Virus record (IMG/VR): IMGVR_UViG_3300023181_000031
Coordinates: 1 to 62,097 of that record
Direction: 5' to 3' (one strand)
DNA: 62,097 bases
Source of the DNA: a virus
Within the stretch, counting starts at the first letter, position 1. Each line of letters begins with the position of its first letter. Under the pieces are notes generated by a model, which saw nothing but the letters and a program-made list of their open reading frames with translations, had not been told where the DNA came from and did not search any database. The position numbers were made by a program, and so were the translations under genes. This document shows, piece after piece, positions 7,484 through 62,097 of this stretch.

Positions 7484-7512
7484 TTGACTTTTAAATGTGA
7501 TTAATATATACT
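7484..7512 (+). promoter_or_regulatory. Rightward early promoter
   Basis: TTGACT (7484-7489) and TATACT (7507-7512) are spaced by exactly 17 bases, giving a start near 7520. That is downstream of an ATG at 7497, which supports the start at 7548 for the first gene. The operator half-sites end just upstream. Confidence 0.8.
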
Positions 7513-7547
7513 TGGTTTTAACGATTGAAATTAAAGGTAAAAACAAA

Positions 7548-7781
7548 ATGACAAAATTTGCTGATGAAAAAGTTTTAAAACAAGAATTAAAAACACAACT
7601 TCCTAAATTAACTATAAAGGTTACTAGAAATAAAGAAGCGGTAATAGGAATAAAAACCGAAGGTATAGGAGCAGGTAAGTTATTAACAAAGTATGTTTGT
7701 AAGAAATTAGGTTATGAGATTGTTAAACCTGAATATTTAACAGATAAACAAAAACAAAATTATGATTGTTTTATATTTTAA
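7548..7781 (+). CDS. Hypothetical early protein, 77 aa
   Basis: This is the first gene of the rightward early operon. ATG 7548 follows AAAGGTAAAAACAAA. The protein is basic (QELKTQLPKLTIKVTRNKEA), with a C-terminal KYVCKKLGYEIVKPEYLTDK. It was not recognised. First-in-operon phage genes are often host takeover or antiterminator proteins, which is only inference here. Confidence 0.7.
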   Translation: MTKFADEKVLKQELKTQLPKLTIKVTRNKEAVIGIKTEGIGAGKLLTKYVCKKLGYEIVKPEYLTDKQKQNYDCFIF

Positions 7782-7794
7782 GAGGTAAAAACAA

Positions 7795-8412
7795 ATGACA
7801 TTTAGAAGCGTAACAAGTGATTTAGAAAAGACTTATCAAGAAAAGTTTAAAGGTTTAGATAATAAAGGTTTAGTAGCTGATTTTAGAGCTGAGAAAAAGA
7901 AAAAAAATGAATTTAAAACACTTGCAGAGTTTAAAGCTGAAAGTTTAGTTCCTTTTCATATCTATAGAAAAGAATTTAATAGAAGAGGGATAGATTACTT
8001 AGAAGTGTTGCATAATCCTGAGTTTGTGCCTGCTGATAGTGTTACAGAAATTACTTACGCTGAGTATGCAAAACAGTTTTTAAATATAACTATAACAGAA
8101 GATCAAGCCATGTTTTTATGGAGTTTAGCCACTGATGACTTAGATATAGTTTATCAAGGTTGTAAGACTGGTACTAGATCAGTTTATATAGTTAATTACA
8201 TAGAAAGTTTATGTGATGATAAAGGTATAGAGTTTCCAGAAAAAAGACATTTTAATAACAGTGAATATAACAGGTTTTTTGATAATATTCTTGATCCTGA
8301 AAGTAATATTTATAATGCTTCTGTTCATATGGAAGTGTTAAATAAAATAGTTACTAAGTGTTTTGATAAGTTCGTAGAATTTTATGATGAAAATAGAAAT
8401 GGAGATATTTAA
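7795..8412 (+). CDS. Hypothetical protein, 205 aa
   Basis: A mostly helical protein beginning MTFRSVTSDLEKTYQEKFKG. It has a charged N-terminal region and a conserved-looking core around FLWSLATDDLDIVYQGCKTG. AGAGGTAAAAACAA precedes the ATG. No known family was recognised. Confidence 0.72.
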   Translation: MTFRSVTSDLEKTYQEKFKGLDNKGLVADFRAEKKKKNEFKTLAEFKAESLVPFHIYRKEFNRRGIDYLEVLHNPEFVPADSVTEITYAEYAKQFLNITITEDQAMFLWSLATDDLDIVYQGCKTGTRSVYIVNYIESLCDDKGIEFPEKRHFNNSEYNRFFDNILDPESNIYNASVHMEVLNKIVTKCFDKFVEFYDENRNGDI

Positions 8413-27811: not shown

Positions 27812-28507
27812 ATGCAAAAAGAAATAGAAACAGCAGTTAAGTGGTGGAGTCAATTTTTAGAAACTACAGCTAAGTTTGATAATGGTGATAATAGTCATAC
27901 AGGTTTTATAACTTCTGTTATGGCAAGTATGTTGAGTGAGAACGTAAAAACTACTACACAAGATAAAGAAAAATTTGAAAAAGCATTTACTCAGATTTTA
28001 GAAGAAAAATATAAAACTAATTGGGACGAAAATAATCCTATATTTGGGGCAATGTATAATTCTATAAGCGTAGATTATCACCCTTGTAAATATCTTTGTG
28101 ACGCTGTTTCTTTAGCAGGTTTAGACTATGATATTAATAATAAATTCCCTTATAAAACTAATATGCGTGTACGCCCTGGCTTTGTTTCTGTTAGTTATGG
28201 TTACGGTGCAAAACAAGAGGTTTTATATACAGATAATAGAATAACTACTTTTAATATTCAACCTACTGAAAATCAAATAAATAAATATAAAGAAGAATTA
28301 AAAGATGAAAATGTTTTTTCTATAAAAATAAATGATTTTGAAAAATATAAATATTCTAATAGTAATTACTTATCTTATAGTTTTAATGATTGGGACGATA
28401 CAAAAAATTATGTTTATGTATCATGCTTAAGTAAAGATGCTGAAATAATTCTAAAATTAATTAATGAAAACATTGAATACATTGAATTAACAGAAACAAA
28501 GGAATAA
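27812..28507 (+). CDS. Hypothetical protein, 231 aa
   Basis: The N-terminal half contains VKWWSQFLETTAKFDNGD and CKYLCDAVSLAGL, and the middle has MRVRPGFVSVSYGYGAKQEV. Some phages carry similar proteins of unknown role. No motif allows a function call. Confidence 0.65.
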   Translation: MQKEIETAVKWWSQFLETTAKFDNGDNSHTGFITSVMASMLSENVKTTTQDKEKFEKAFTQILEEKYKTNWDENNPIFGAMYNSISVDYHPCKYLCDAVSLAGLDYDINNKFPYKTNMRVRPGFVSVSYGYGAKQEVLYTDNRITTFNIQPTENQINKYKEELKDENVFSIKINDFEKYKYSNSNYLSYSFNDWDDTKNYVYVSCLSKDAEIILKLINENIEYIELTETKE

Positions 28508-50679: not shown

Positions 50680-51140
50680 TAGGTCAACCAGGATTATTAG
50701 ATACTCAGCAAACGGAAGCTAGTAACCAATCTGAGCAAAATATGATAAATAATAATATTCAAAATGATTTATTTACTTTGCTTAAATTCGGAGTTGGTAG
50801 AGATGATTTAAAAACTTTATCAGGTCAAAAAATAACCGTTACTAATACTGTTATTGTAAAGAAAAAAGGAATGATAACCTATATTGGTGTTGTTTCTAGT
50901 TCTATTTCTATAAATGTTTTACTTCCTGAAGTGCAAGACATTAATATTTATGATTGTTTTATTATTAAAGATGAGAGTTTAAACGCATCTACATATAATA
51001 TTACTATTATAGCTAATGATAATGTAATTGACGGAGTTAATGCGGATCAAATTATTAATACTAATGGTGGTAAGTTATGGTTAATATGTACTGATATTGA
51101 TTATGATAATAATATTGCTTATTTCTCGGTGTTAAACTAA
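50676..51140 (+). CDS. Tail protein, 154 aa
   Basis: Beta-helical appearance (INVLLPEVQDINIYDCFIIK, VIDGVNADQIINTNGGKLWL) with regular short strands, as in fibre or tailspike accessory domains. ATGA overlap upstream. Confidence 0.6.
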   Translation: MIGQPGLLDTQQTEASNQSEQNMINNNIQNDLFTLLKFGVGRDDLKTLSGQKITVTNTVIVKKKGMITYIGVVSSSISINVLLPEVQDINIYDCFIIKDESLNASTYNITIIANDNVIDGVNADQIINTNGGKLWLICTDIDYDNNIAYFSVLN

Positions 51141-52444
51141 TGGATGAATTAAATAATATACCCGTTACTACACCGAAAACAAGGTTTTCATGGCCTTATC
51201 AACAAGCTTATAATAACCAAGTACGATTAAATGTAAATCAATTAAAAGATATTGCTGTAGCTACTCAATTAATGATTGATAATTTACAAACTCAAATTAC
51301 AAATGATAATAAACAAAGTGATTGGAATCAAACAGACAACACTAAAATAGATTATATTTTAAATAAACCCGCTTTTACTACTCCCGTTAATGCTGATTGG
51401 AACTCTACAACTGGTTTATCACAAATATTAAATAAACCTGTATTATTTGATGGAAACTATAACAGTTTAATTAATAAGCCAAATTTATTTAATGGAGACT
51501 ATAATAATCTAACAAACAAACCTACTTATTTTAACGGTGATTATAACAACCTTACTAATAAGCCTATTATACCTGCTACACAAATACAAAGTAACTGGAC
51601 TCAATCTGATAATACAAAGTTAGACTTTATAAAGAATAAACCCGTTTTATTTAGTGGCTCTTATACAGATTTAACAAACAAGCCTAGCTTTTTTGATGGA
51701 AATTATAATAACTTAACTAATAAACCTATATTGTTTGATGGTAATTATACTAGTTTAACTAATAAACCAACTATCCCAAATAATACAGCTCAAATAACAG
51801 AAACTACAAGCTTATATTTTACTCAAACAAGAGCAAGAGAAAGTATAACAGCTACTACACCGCTTAATTATAATTCTACAACAGGTGTTTTATCACTTCC
51901 TTTAACTAGCTTTGCACCGGCCTTATTATTTTCACAAACTGAGACAAAAACAGTTAGTGGAGTATTAACAGAAACTAGCTTACTAGGTAATGGTGTAGGA
52001 ACTAAAACACTTACAGCTAATAGCTTAATCCAAGGTAAAACTATCTTAATAAAAGGTAATGGCTTTTTAAGTACAGGGTTAATCAGTTTACCTAACATAA
52101 ATCTTAGATTAAAACTTGGGGGTACTTTATTAGTACAAACAGGTACAGTGCTAATAGTTGGTTTAGGTCAATCTAACGCAGGCTTTGATTTTGAAATATT
52201 ACTTACATGTCAATCTATTGATGTAAATAATAAAGCTGTAATTAGGTGTCAAGGTGTAGCCGGTTATAGTAGCGTAGCAGCACTTAATTTATCAAATCGT
52301 ATATCATACGGTATGACACAAACTACACCTGTTTTAATTGATCCATCAATAGCCCAAACATTTGATATTACTTTTCAATGGGGTTTAGTAACTCTTGGAA
52401 GTACTATTACAATTACAAATTTATATATTCAAACTTTAAACTAA
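51140..52444 (+). CDS. Tail fibre protein with NKP repeats
   Basis: 434 aa. A shaft at residues ~75-215 is built of about eight copies of the pattern F(D/N)GxYNNLTNKPx, common in phage fibres. The C-terminal ~200 residues form a Thr/Gly/Leu-rich beta domain that would be the receptor-binding tip. It is preceded by a short N-terminal tail-attachment part. Confidence 0.82.
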   Translation: MDELNNIPVTTPKTRFSWPYQQAYNNQVRLNVNQLKDIAVATQLMIDNLQTQITNDNKQSDWNQTDNTKIDYILNKPAFTTPVNADWNSTTGLSQILNKPVLFDGNYNSLINKPNLFNGDYNNLTNKPTYFNGDYNNLTNKPIIPATQIQSNWTQSDNTKLDFIKNKPVLFSGSYTDLTNKPSFFDGNYNNLTNKPILFDGNYTSLTNKPTIPNNTAQITETTSLYFTQTRARESITATTPLNYNSTTGVLSLPLTSFAPALLFSQTETKTVSGVLTETSLLGNGVGTKTLTANSLIQGKTILIKGNGFLSTGLISLPNINLRLKLGGTLLVQTGTVLIVGLGQSNAGFDFEILLTCQSIDVNNKAVIRCQGVAGYSSVAALNLSNRISYGMTQTTPVLIDPSIAQTFDITFQWGLVTLGSTITITNLYIQTLN

Positions 52445-52458
52445 AAGGAGTTTTTAAC

Positions 52459-52977
52459 ATGGCAACATTTCAAGAGATTACAGATAAAATTAATAACTTA
52501 GCAAATAAGTTTTATGTATTTTACCAATTAAATAATAATAATGCTTTAATTAAATCTATACTTACAGATTTTAAAAATATATTAATTAATTCTACTCCTG
52601 AAAAATCCTTTGTTTCTCTATATAATGTTAGTACAGAAGCATTAAGTGTATTAAGAGTTGATGATACTTTAATAGCAACTCAAAATGGTCAGTTTATTTT
52701 TAATGGTCAACCTGCTTATGCGGATAATTCAATATTATATCTTTTAAAAGATCAGCCTAAAGAATTTGAAACAGTAGTAAGTTTAAATAATGGTATTTAT
52801 AAATTAATTCAAACAGGGGATAATGAAACACCATTTATTTTAAAAGATATAAATAACGAATTTGCAAAACAAACTCTAGTTTTTGATACAAGTTCAAATA
52901 AACAATACGTTTACTCTAAAGATATATCTGATAATATCAATTATTACTCTATTTTTGAATTTATACCATCAATATAA
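52459..52977 (+). CDS. Hypothetical protein after the fibre gene, 172 aa
   Basis: Start chosen at ATG 52459 (AAAGGAGTTTTTAAC upstream); an earlier in-frame ATG lies in the fibre gene. Helical N-terminus, then beta-rich (VSLYNVSTEALSVLRVDDTL). Possibly a fibre chaperone or tip protein. Confidence 0.65.
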   Translation: MATFQEITDKINNLANKFYVFYQLNNNNALIKSILTDFKNILINSTPEKSFVSLYNVSTEALSVLRVDDTLIATQNGQFIFNGQPAYADNSILYLLKDQPKEFETVVSLNNGIYKLIQTGDNETPFILKDINNEFAKQTLVFDTSSNKQYVYSKDISDNINYYSIFEFIPSI

Positions 52978-53000: not shown

Positions 53001-53510
53001 ATGGCAAATATTACAACAAATTTTCCAGATTATGAGTTAGCAGGTCAAGGCGAAAGATGGACTTTAATTCCAAAAGAGCATCAAAATAATTTAAAAATAC
53101 TAGCAAAGAATATTTTACAACCTGCTAGAGATGATATTAATAAAAATAATCCTAAAAACGATATAGCAATATTTATTACATCGGGTTACAGATCAAGAAA
53201 ACATAATGAAGCCGCTGACGGTGCTAGTAATAGCATGCACTTATATGGTAAAGCTGTAGATATATCATGCTCACAATTTACAGGTATAGAATTTTTTGAA
53301 TATATGCTAAAAAACTTTTCTAATCAAATAGGTGGAATTGGTTTATATGCAAATGAAAACCTAAAAGGAAAGTTTATACATATTGATATGCGACCTAAAC
53401 ATAATGGTAAAGCTATAGTTAGTTGGTATTTTGACGGTTCACGCTATAGATCACCTGGGCCAAAGATGCAAGCTATATTTAAAAAGCTTGGCTTAGCGTT
53501 TGTAGGTTAA
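53001..53510 (+). CDS. Endolysin, peptidase M15 family
   Basis: 169-aa L-alanoyl-D-glutamate or D,D-type peptidase. SGYRS at 61-65, H80 and D87 (SMHLYGKAVDI) and H127 (FIHIDM, with D129 nearby) give the full M15 zinc and catalytic set. No signal sequence is present, so release depends on the holin encoded next. Strong AAAGGAG site. Confidence 0.93.
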   Translation: MANITTNFPDYELAGQGERWTLIPKEHQNNLKILAKNILQPARDDINKNNPKNDIAIFITSGYRSRKHNEAADGASNSMHLYGKAVDISCSQFTGIEFFEYMLKNFSNQIGGIGLYANENLKGKFIHIDMRPKHNGKAIVSWYFDGSRYRSPGPKMQAIFKKLGLAFVG

Positions 53511-53512
53511 TT

Positions 53513-53797
53513 ATGAAAATACTTACAGATACTTTAAAAAATAACGGTAAATGGTCTAGTAAAAAACTTACTACTTTAACGTGCTTAGTTCTTTGCATAT
53601 TTATGGCTTTAGTTGATCTTTTTACTGTTTATAAACTAAATATCCAAGTTTTTGAGGCATTCCTTCTCTTAGGTGGCGGAACATCTATCTTGACATCAGC
53701 AACAAACATAGTTAATAAAAAACTAGACAATGATTTAACAAACATAGATAATAATACAAGTACTACTATTAAAGAAACTACAATACAAAAGGGATAA
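53513..53797 (+). CDS. Holin
   Basis: 94 aa with two hydrophobic spans (LTCLVLCIFMALVDLFTV at about 22-39, FEAFLLLGGGTSILTSA at about 47-63), a charged N-terminus and polar C-terminus. It lies two bases after the endolysin. Typical phage holin shape. Confidence 0.8.
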   Translation: MKILTDTLKNNGKWSSKKLTTLTCLVLCIFMALVDLFTVYKLNIQVFEAFLLLGGGTSILTSATNIVNKKLDNDLTNIDNNTSTTIKETTIQKG

Positions 53798-53798
53798 C

Positions 53799-54527
53799 AT
53801 GACCTCTATATTATCAGATAAAGCATTAATTATTGTCGAAGATGATAGTACTATCTCTTTACTTTTAGAAGAGATAGCAACTATCTTAAAAGTTAAAAGC
53901 TTTGAAACTCGTGCAACTGTTGACGAAGCCTTACTATTAATTAAAGACCCTAATTATATTTTTGATTTTATGATACTTGACATTCAACTACCAGGAAATA
54001 AAACAGGTGTAGATTTAGTGACTTATCTTTTTGATAATCATATTACTATGCCTATTTTAGTTTATTCAGCTAATCTAAAAGGCTATAAAAGTAAGTTCTT
54101 AAAATATACTTTATCCGATTTTCTTACAATTAAATTTCTTGAAAAACCTGCGAGTTATGTAGATTTAATTCAAAATATTAACGAAACTATTACTTTGCAT
54201 AATGCTTTAAGAGTTGAAACAGTAGAATTACCAAGATTGCAAAAGGAAATAACAGATTTAAAAATATTTTATGAACAAAAATTTAACGAACAAAAAAATC
54301 AGTATGAATTACAAATAACTGAAGTACAAGAAAAAGCTAATCAAGAAATTCAATTATTAAAAGATAAAGTAGCTAGTTTAGATGAAAACTTTATTCCTGT
54401 AATAAGAAAAATTATACTAGATGAAATTAAAAATAACAAAGGAAAAATCATTATAGGTTTAACGGGTGCTTTTGTTACTGCAACAGGATTTTACTTTGAA
54501 GTATTACAAAAATTCTTTGGTAAATAA
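53799..54527 (+). CDS. CheY-like receiver protein with coiled coil and C-terminal membrane anchor
   Basis: 242 aa. Residues 8-130 form a receiver domain: acidic pocket E14-D15-D16 (IIVEDDS), phospho-acceptor D61 (MILDIQLPG), S90 (LVYSA), K116-P117 (LEKPAS). All key residues are intact. Residues 145-195 are a coiled coil (FNEQKNQYELQITEVQEKAN). Residues ~216-236 (IIIGLTGAFVTATGFYFEVL) form a membrane helix. No DNA-binding or enzymatic output domain exists. Directly follows the holin by one base and ends the late operon. Possible roles: host-signal control of lysis, a spanin-like role, or sequestering a host kinase. All three are inference. Confidence 0.85.
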   Translation: MTSILSDKALIIVEDDSTISLLLEEIATILKVKSFETRATVDEALLLIKDPNYIFDFMILDIQLPGNKTGVDLVTYLFDNHITMPILVYSANLKGYKSKFLKYTLSDFLTIKFLEKPASYVDLIQNINETITLHNALRVETVELPRLQKEITDLKIFYEQKFNEQKNQYELQITEVQEKANQEIQLLKDKVASLDENFIPVIRKIILDEIKNNKGKIIIGLTGAFVTATGFYFEVLQKFFGK

Positions 54528-54528
54528 T

Positions 54529-54566
54529 AAAAAAGATTCTAGCTATTTCTAACTAGAATCTTTTTT
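54529..54566. terminator. Strong bidirectional terminator at the end of the late operon
   Basis: AAAAAAGATTCTAG/CTAGAATCTTTTTT, 14-bp stem with a 10-base loop. It ends both the rightward late operon and the leftward nucleotide-metabolism operon. Confidence 0.93.
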
Positions 54567-54613
54567 ACTATAAGCTATTGAAAACGGTGATTAAGTTATT
54601 ATTATAACATAAA

Positions 54614-55887: not shown

Positions 55888-56532
55888 CTATAAGTTAAAC
55901 GCTTTTAATGTATATTCAAAAGGATTACCGTCTATATTTTTTACTAAATCTAACATTGTCTGGCTGATTTCCCTGATTTCAGCTTGTGAATGGCTATCTA
56001 ATCTTAGTTTAAGAAAGTGGAAAAAACTTCTTATATTAGCTGTAGCATATAACTGAGTATTTAAAGATAATGGTAAGACTCCCCTAGCTTGTTCCTTACA
56101 TACTCCCGCTTGTAATAAATGATTATATGCCGTATAAGCATTATCTAAAGCACTTTCATAAATAAACTTTATTTCTTCTTGGTTTAACTTACCTTCTATA
56201 TCATTTTTACTTCCTTGTTTAATATCTTTATCCTGTAATCTAAACTTATCAGGAGTAAAAAAATCATCTTCAAACTCAACATAACGACCTGATATCTCAT
56301 TAAATGACCATGATCTATGACGCATTAACTGTCTAGCAATATAAATAGGTATCTCTAATCTAAACGTAAAACCGCAATGTTCTAAAGTGCTTACATGATT
56401 ATGTTTTACCAAGTAATTTATTAATTTTTCGTCTGATAAATCTAATACATTTTTATGCTTACCTAATGATACTCTGGCTGAATTAACCACCATAAGATCA
56501 TTACCCCAACTATTAACTAATTCTACTTTCAT
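55888..56532 (-). CDS. thyX: Flavin-dependent thymidylate synthase
   Basis: 214-aa ThyX makes dTMP from dUMP with flavin and methylenetetrahydrofolate. The signature RHRSWSFNEISGRY at 71-84 has all conserved residues (R71 H72 R73, S76, N78 E79, S81, R83). Start at ATG 56532 overlaps the homing-endonuclease stop by 4 bases. It works with dUTPase and dCTP deaminase. Confidence 0.96.
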   Translation of the reverse strand: MKVELVNSWGNDLMVVNSARVSLGKHKNVLDLSDEKLINYLVKHNHVSTLEHCGFTFRLEIPIYIARQLMRHRSWSFNEISGRYVEFEDDFFTPDKFRLQDKDIKQGSKNDIEGKLNQEEIKFIYESALDNAYTAYNHLLQAGVCKEQARGVLPLSLNTQLYATANIRSFFHFLKLRLDSHSQAEIREISQTMLDLVKNIDGNPFEYTLKAFNL

Positions 56533-57368
56533 AATATTATTAACTCATATCCTTTTTTATTTGTAATACCTTTTTTTATTTTATTTATTGTAGTTAAAGG
56601 AACTTTTGATATTTTAGATAATTCTTTTAAACTATCCGCTATATAAGATTCTCCTGTAATTTTATTAACTAAATTACATTTAATTCTATTATATGCAGGC
56701 TTGCCTATTTTTGATAACCCTAATTTAGCACATCTAGGGTCAGTTTCTTTATTTAAACCTTTATTCCATCTTGGCTTATCTAACATATTTTTCATACGTT
56801 CTTTTTTATGTTCTGCATCTTCTTTTTTCCCATACATACCGTTTTTAGCACCTAATTTAGAAATACTTAATTTCTTTTTAGTTTCATCAGTATGTTTATT
56901 TCCTCTAATTTGATTAGCTCTTTTTTCTATTACTTCTTTAGATTGTTTAACACCTTTCTTTTTTAAACTCATAATTTTTTTACTTTCTTCGGTATGTTTA
57001 TAACCTGTGGGTCTACCCGCTTTAATACAATTATTAAAACCATATTCTCTATTATAAGATTGTAAAATATCCATATAAAATTGTTCTCTAATTAAGAGAT
57101 TATCTTTATCTGTATATTCTAATACTTCAAATATAAAATTTTCTTTAGAATGTAAATTCCAAGCACTTTGTAAATGTGGATTTTTATGTTTGTTATTGTT
57201 TAATGTTCTTAAATGTACCTTAAATCTATTTTCTAAATTTGATGAAGAGCCAATATAATATTTATTATTAACTAAACAAGTTATTTTATAAATACCACTA
57301 AGATTCTTTAAATCCTGAAAACAATTAGTGGTATTTTCTATATCTTTAAATACATACGAAATAAACAT
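56529..57368 (-). CDS. GIY-YIG homing endonuclease with NUMOD3 motifs
   Basis: 279 aa. The catalytic domain opens SGIYKITCLVNNKYYIGSSS (GIY and YIG), with the conserved Arg in NLENRFKVHL. KHTEESKKIMSLKKKG-type NUMOD3 DNA-binding motifs and a C-terminal helix-turn-helix-like part follow. Start chosen at ATG 57368, since the longer frame begins at TTG. It is free-standing, placed directly against thyX. Confidence 0.93.
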   Translation of the reverse strand: MFISYVFKDIENTTNCFQDLKNLSGIYKITCLVNNKYYIGSSSNLENRFKVHLRTLNNNKHKNPHLQSAWNLHSKENFIFEVLEYTDKDNLLIREQFYMDILQSYNREYGFNNCIKAGRPTGYKHTEESKKIMSLKKKGVKQSKEVIEKRANQIRGNKHTDETKKKLSISKLGAKNGMYGKKEDAEHKKERMKNMLDKPRWNKGLNKETDPRCAKLGLSKIGKPAYNRIKCNLVNKITGESYIADSLKELSKISKVPLTTINKIKKGITNKKGYELIIL

Positions 57369-57390
57369 TTTCAAATTACCTTTTTACGTT

Positions 57391-60755: not shown

Positions 60756-62097
60756 TTACACCTTAAAAATATCACTAACAATATCAAACACTTGATTTAA
60801 AATATCTAACTCGTGCATTATTTGCAATCTGCTTTTTTTAATACCCCTCATTTCATAATTACTTTTTCTAAGAGGAATATTAAAACCTAATCTATCGTAA
60901 ATCTCTTTATCTAATTTATACCAAGCTTCTTGATTTTCCTTATCTCCTGGATTATCAAACTTAGTAACAACATATTTACGAATAACAGCTAATATCTTTT
61001 TACTTAAAGGAGCTTCAATTGCTGTATTATTTGAGTACTCTACATCTTTTAAATTATCTAATAACTCTTTCTTTTCAACTTCCTGACGTTCTAAAGTATT
61101 TTCTACATTTTCTAATCTGCCATTAATTAAACTTAATTTAGCCTCTTGATCTTTTAAAGCTTGCAACTGACTAGTAAATAAATCAATCGCTGTTACTGGC
61201 TTAGTTTGTGCTAATTGCTCACTCATTTCTTCAAATTTATCAAGATATTTTTCTTTAAATTTAACAGCCTTTTCACCTGTAAAACTAAAAGCTAATAAAC
61301 TAAATCCTTTTTCTGTCATTTCAAACATACGGATTTGTTTATTTTGCTCACTGGTATAAAAGGACGGTGCAAAATTACGCTCTCTAAATTTTTCGGTACA
61401 TTCTAACAAATCTAAGGCACGTAATACAGATTTATGTTCCTTATTAAATACCATAGATACATAAAGAGTATTAGTAACTAACTTTCCATCTTTTTCATAA
61501 ACTATATTATTTTGATTAGGGGTAAATAAGTCTTGATCTACATTAACTAAACCGTTATCTATTTCTTTTAACTCATCTACTAATTCTAAATTACTAAGAT
61601 AAAACGTACCTACAGATTTACCATCATTAAAAATAACTTCTGTAATTTCTTTGTTTAAAAAATTAATTTTACCAATTTCATCAAAACAACTATTCTTTTT
61701 ATCAATTATTTTTACTTTACTTCCAATTTTAAACAACTCAGGATTATATTTTCTTAAACTTGTAAAAATAAACTCAGCAACAACATTAACATCTTTCATT
61801 TGAACAAAGTATCTACCATTAGATAAAACATCTTTAATAGTACCTACAGAGCCGTAAAAGTTTGTATATTCATTATCTATAACAACTAAATCACCAACTT
61901 TAAAACCTTTGTTTGTTTCAACTTCTTTAACGGGTTCTTGCTCTACTAACTCTAAATTATCTTGATGATAATTAAAAGCTTGACCATCAATATTTACAAT
62001 CGCAAAATTATGAAAAACATCACTTTCAAATCTTGATATAATTCCTACTTGATTATATTCTGGACAACCTTTATTACTACCCTAACTTTATCGCCTA
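60756..62097 (-). CDS. KOW-repeat/Rha-type antirepressor, C-terminal part (continues at the left end)
   Basis: The frame runs from the right end to 60756 and joins bases 1-1103 in phase: 1103 + 1198 = 2301 bases, 766 codons plus stop. It holds KOW-like repeats five and six (about 385-430 and 439-490). A Rha domain (SMVFNKEHKSVLRALDLLEC, MFEMTEKGFSLLAFSFTG) spans about 520-620, then a coiled coil. A C-terminal ORF6C-like domain (ILAVIRKYVVTKFDN, WYKLDKEIYDRLGF) ends it. Rha/ORF6C proteins act as antirepressors. In the duplicated end 62079 carries a one-base loss that would break the frame. Confidence 0.85.
61954..62097. repeat. Terminal direct repeat, right copy (assembly overlap)
   Basis: It repeats 1-145 with one base missing at about 62079. 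See the left copy. Confidence 0.93.

Follow-up and report, generated by a model that had tools for sequence, protein, structure and literature searches.

A phage receiver protein with a coiled coil and a probable membrane anchor, encoded at the end of a late operon, and its possible role in lysis

Genes at the end of the late operon

The window analysed here is the whole 62,097-nucleotide stretch of IMG/VR virus record IMGVR_UViG_3300023181_000031. Its structural and late genes (29568-54527) all lie on the + strand, and the genes beyond them on the - strand. Toward the end of the late region a tail fibre-like protein (51140..52444, +; phrog_9729, E=9.4e-15) is followed by an ORF without assigned function (52459-52977, +), an M15-type endolysin (53001..53510, +; Pfam Peptidase_M15_3, E=4.1e-13; phrog_894, E=1.1e-25), a 94-aa holin-like ORF with one strong transmembrane (TM) segment and one weak hydrophobic stretch (53513..53797, +) and, after a gap of one base, a gene for a 242-aa protein with an ATG start and a receiver domain (53799..54527, +), which is the second gene past the endolysin. 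Directly 3' of it a terminator-like hairpin followed by a T run (~54528..54567, +; -16 kcal/mol, z -4.64) separates the two strand blocks. The receiver gene is the last late gene, ahead of a strong terminator hairpin, and its placement at the very end of the late operon in the preliminary description of this DNA holds. The hairpin was not called by a simple terminator scan, probably because the loop limit of that scan was 8. That description also put the gene one base after a holin; the spacing is correct, and the holin identity derives from position and one clear TM segment only. The 94-aa ORF had no match in Pfam or PHROG and no tblastn relative in the phage collection, and the holin call is therefore positional. 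A single receiver was found in the window, and no HATPase_c match that would mark a kinase.

Other genes of the window are recorded here as observations in their own right. A 231-aa ORF (27812-28507, +) matches PF07742 (BTG; E=5.4e-12), a Pfam family of anti-proliferative proteins of animals that is unexpected in a phage. A 281-aa ORF (56529-57374, -), which by eye resembles a GIY-YIG-type homing endonuclease, adjoins the ThyX gene (55888-56532) and weakly matches a 131-aa ORF in contig L177, one of the receiver-bearing contigs described below. A pRha regulatory domain (60756-61799, -; PF09669, E=3.3e-23) may point to a temperate phage.

Architecture of the window protein

The 242-aa protein matches PF00072 (Response_reg) over aa 11-110 (E=4.6e-10; 40.1 bits against a curated cut-off of 30.2). 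It also matches phrog_5982 (E=4.5e-9) and phrog_731 (E=5.2e-7), neither of which has an assigned function. The receiver domain, delimited by this match, a residue check, the structural model and Foldseek, spans approximately aa 9-118 (53823..54152, +), and all phosphorylation residues are present (D15, D16, D61, S90 and K116-P117), in agreement with the active site first read from the DNA. Single-sequence AlphaFold gave a poor receiver, and a run with 12 viral-contig receiver sequences was used instead; this returned a (beta-alpha)5 domain with block pLDDT values of 93-98 over aa 11-90. Foldseek searches of the PDB with this model retrieved the receivers of CheY, PhoP, RssB and others at E ~1e-6. 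The structure prediction suggested in the preliminary description has yielded a confident receiver fold.

Pfam and NCBIfam scans detected no output domain, as had been proposed; a C-terminal DNA-binding domain of the PhoB/OmpR type is likewise absent from the protein in these scans, its C-terminal part consisting of a coil and a hydrophobic helix. The coiled coil (~aa 144-193; 54228..54377, +) is helical in both models, with a long helix over aa 144-193 in the 12-sequence model and a heptad score of 0.64 at aa 171, and this part of the originally proposed layout stands. The C-terminal membrane helix that was to follow it (~aa 215-233; 54441..54497, +) proved marginal: the segment has a KD value of 1.56 and an approximate insertion energy of +1.6, the scale and position weights being themselves approximate, and ranks as the second best C-tail among the 61 window proteins of at least 100 aa. 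The last 25 residues are poorly modelled, the C-terminal helix having a pLDDT of 40-55 in the 12-sequence run. Taken together, this segment is probably a membrane anchor, marginal by sequence and modelled at low confidence. The window protein combines a receiver and a coiled coil with a TM helix (TM-coil) in fused form, lacking an output domain and with its TM part marginal.

Receiver genes and TM-coil neighbours in other phages

Close relatives of the window protein were not recovered. Searches of GenBank phages by tblastn gave chance-level matches only (E ~0.6), and peptide patterns found no relative in IMG/VR. The IMG/VR records closest to the window in TerL (41-59% identity), 39 in all, contained no receiver; four of these were examined as possible kin of the window and rejected, sharing with it nothing beyond TerL and a scatter of weak matches. 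Scanning with an alignment that included bacterial receivers was dropped because that alignment was too divergent. An AT-rich receiver DNA pattern searched in IMG/VR led to three unrelated contigs (L104, L105 and L124), each with a stand-alone receiver and, in 3/3, an adjoining gene for a small coiled-coil protein bearing a C-terminal TM segment. In L105 a patatin-like phospholipase gene (7504-8295; PF01734, E=7.7e-11) ends where the receiver gene starts.

From these contigs a set of annotated Alteromonas phages was reached. The gene order is TM-coil, receiver and GH108 endolysin in R9Y1, and holin, TM-coil and receiver in R8W and H4/4. PT11-V22 and PT15-A5 have a weak-TM coil, receiver, Rz-like spanin and two-TM protein, to which A5 adds an endolysin. 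In PB15 a coil-TM protein of the phrog_937 hemolysin family (E=1.8e-16) precedes the receiver, an M15 endolysin of the same family as that of the window (phrog_894) and a holin (phrog_3427). PT11-V19 carries a TM-coil and a degenerate receiver without the phospho-Asp. A second DNA pattern, used as a test of TM-coil adjacency, gave contigs L152, L151, L177/L185 and the L149 group (L149, L160, L161 and L172). In L152 a TM-coil gene lies 8 bp upstream of the receiver; in L151, L177/L185 and the L149 group the receiver has no TM-coil neighbour. The L149 group comprises large AT-rich viral contigs whose stand-alone receiver is of another kind. In L177 (2302-6178) the stand-alone receiver lies ~850 bp from an ORF resembling T4 rIIA with a weak HATPase_c match. 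Among the phage records scanned there was one receiver each and no convincing histidine kinase.

L006, from the genome scan, was spurious. Also excluded, as bacterial DNA, were the matches in the records Acinetobacter 'phage' MD-2021a, Listeria LM, Kay, Efs and fecal MT83xxxx; those excluded records that were opened had response regulators beside histidine kinases or other chromosomal genes. More generally, phage-labelled CAKLQH/CAKLQF, OR84xxxx and MT83xxxx records appear to carry bacterial chromosome DNA, for example response regulator and kinase pairs.

A receiver directly beside, or fused to, a single-TM coiled coil was found in ~10/13 receiver lineages, the window being the fused version, and the carriers of the pair are unrelated sipho-, podo- and myophages. 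By strict criteria a TM-coil neighbour occurs in 5/11 receiver lineages compared with 1.85% of 1,079 genes (binomial P ~9e-7), and by relaxed criteria in 8/11 compared with 8.5% (P ~4e-7), the background being taken from our own gene calls on the genomes compared; among genes within eight of receivers the local background is 4% strict and 14% relaxed. These denominators leave the L149 group aside, and its inclusion gives 5/12 and 8/12, respectively. The partner in L124 was called too short and missed, making the count conservative there, and L152, found after the count, also has a TM-coil neighbour. The adjacency criterion was set after L104, L105 and L124 had been seen; it is tested more fairly by the lineages found afterwards, many of which are Alteromonas phages that exchange genes. 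Within these phages R8W and R9Y1, members of different families, have tail-fibre genes, the TM-coil (E=1.5e-7) and the receiver (47%) in common but not the holin or endolysin, and V22 and A5 have fibre, chaperone, TM-coil, receiver, spanin and two-TM genes in common. A search for a family uniting the TM-coil partners gave none, except within R9Y1/R8W and within V22/A5.

The absence of any homolog with the same layout, which the preliminary description named as telling against it, was not what was found, because the pair recurs as adjacent receiver and coiled-coil/TM genes in unrelated phages; in the window the two are fused. These sequence comparisons support a receiver plus TM-coil unit and its gene position.

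Lysis genes lie within four genes of the receiver in six lineages (the window, R9Y1, R8W, PB15, V22/A5 and L104), L152 being a weak case; none was recognised beside the receivers of V19, L105, L124, L177/L185 and the L149 group, L151 lying outside the scan. The window receiver is ~18-27% identical to other phage receivers, with all catalytic residues intact. Across 12 aligned phage receivers D15 and D61 do not vary and K116 hardly does; the phospho-acceptor Asp kept in 12/12 of these is lost in PT11-V19. The two comparisons with estimable dS gave receiver gene dN/dS values of ~0.08 and 0.16, dS being near saturation in R9Y1/L137, and the TM-coil gene gave 0.28 in R8W/H4/4. The receiver genes of the relatives are under purifying selection.

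A possible role in lysis

The window protein shares the receiver fold, the phosphorylation residues and the lack of an output domain with single-domain response regulators such as CheY, Spo0F and DivK (PF00072); it differs in being phage-encoded, in the coiled coil and probable membrane helix fused to it, in its place as the last gene of a lysis cassette and in the absence of a cognate kinase gene from the phage. The Alteromonas phages R8W, H4/4, PT11-V22, PT15-A5, R9Y1 and PB15 likewise encode a late-region receiver without a DNA-binding domain, adjoining a small TM-coil protein and often lysis genes too, although these phages have separate genes for receiver and TM-coil, which the window combines in one protein. 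XhlA-type hemolysins (phrog_937; PF10779) resemble the window protein in having a coiled coil and then a C-terminal TM segment beside lysis genes; the coil/TM part of the window protein (aa 140-242) matched neither profile. A PhoB-like regulator of the Yersinia entomophaga lysis cassette resembles this arrangement in associating a response-regulator-like protein with a lysis cassette, but is reported to control a cassette for exoprotein release, whereas the window protein is phage-encoded, without a DNA-binding domain and probably membrane-bound (PMC10101115).

Phage lysis timing is thought to depend on holins, antiholins and spanins. The preliminary description conjectured from the DNA that the protein may couple lysis to a host two-component signal, act as an antiholin or trap a host kinase. 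Our best reading, to which we assign a probability of roughly 40%, is that the window protein is the fused form of the recurrent receiver/TM-coil pair and regulates lysis proteins from the membrane, in response to phosphorylation by the host. On this view it would be a single-domain response regulator, encoded by the phage and made late, that its coiled coil and C-terminal helix hold at the inner membrane alongside the lysis proteins. D61 would receive phosphate from a histidine kinase of the host or from acetyl phosphate; the resulting change of state would alter the coiled-coil contacts, and the altered contacts might help or hinder holin, spanin or endolysin action, so that lysis would be tuned to the state of the host.

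This reading is favoured by the intact active site and confident fold, by the position of the gene as the last of the late operon and second past the endolysin, by the non-random TM-coil adjacency with lysis genes at most four genes away in six lineages, by the common possession of receiver and TM-coil, but not of holin or endolysin, in R8W and R9Y1, and by purifying selection in the relatives together with the lack of a convincing phage histidine kinase. It is weakened by the lineages with no recognised lysis gene beside the receiver (V19, L105, L124, L177/L185 and the L149 group) and those with no TM-coil neighbour (L151, L177/L185 and the L149 group), by the marginal membrane helix and positional holin of the window, by TM-coil partners that are mostly non-homologous to one another, by an adjacency criterion formed after three contigs had been seen with many later cases being Alteromonas phages, and by the fact that tail-fibre genes accompany the pair as well (R8W/R9Y1 and V22/A5).

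The last of these points bears on a role linked to tail fibres and host recognition, such as superinfection exclusion or receptor control, in which the lysis genes would be mere late-operon neighbours. The movement of receiver and TM-coil with fibre genes is consistent with it, as is the placement of the A5 CheY-like gene within a host-recognition module (PMC10579305); however, the window and PB15 receivers are surrounded by genes for an endolysin and a holin or holin-like protein, and in L105 and L124 no fibre gene adjoins the pair, and we regard such a role as improbable. Published annotations take the gene for an auxiliary one: that of R8W was called PhoB, with adaptation to low phosphate inferred (PMC8228385), and those of V22 and A5 were described as CheY-like class II auxiliary genes (PMC7289586, PMC10579305), in papers that treat the receiver as an auxiliary metabolic gene and discuss neither lysis nor a TM-coil partner. 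An action on host transcription or motility accords with the receiver fold, but the DNA-binding domain is absent from all these phage receivers, and the coiled-coil/TM fusion or partner and the late, lysis-side position also argue against it, leaving it little probability.

A sink for host kinases, by which the tethered receiver would drain phosphate from membrane-bound histidine kinases and silence an envelope-stress response during lysis, with the lysis proteins untouched, would likewise explain a receiver that has no output domain, a membrane tether near those kinases, no phage kinase and a gene adjoining those for envelope-damaging proteins. It would need neither a conserved coiled-coil partner nor a position by lysis genes, and no host kinase partner is known; we consider it unlikely. 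That the gene is a captured host receiver beside lysis genes with no role in the phage, or a chance architecture, draws on the lack of a close relative of the window protein and on the lost Asp of V19, and is hard to reconcile with catalytic residues all intact at ~18-27% identity to other phage receivers, purifying selection in relatives and non-random TM-coil adjacency. The chances of such a bystander appear slim.

Returning to a membrane-tethered regulator of lysis, its extension to a phospho-receiver module common to unrelated tailed phages, in which lysis timing is set by two-component signalling of the host or by the level of acetyl phosphate and of which the window protein would be a one-protein version, is more doubtful. 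Open-access papers yielded none linking phage receiver genes to lysis or to a membrane partner, an absence that speaks only weakly for novelty. The isolated Alteromonas phages R9Y1, R8W, V22, A5 and PB15, whose receiver gene now bears the label of an auxiliary metabolic gene (PhoB or CheY) or is listed as hypothetical, allow the idea to be tested directly. If it is true, the receiver-plus-membrane-coil unit would give two-component signals of the host a defined point of entry into lysis, and phages may let a host signal influence the timing or manner of cell bursting.
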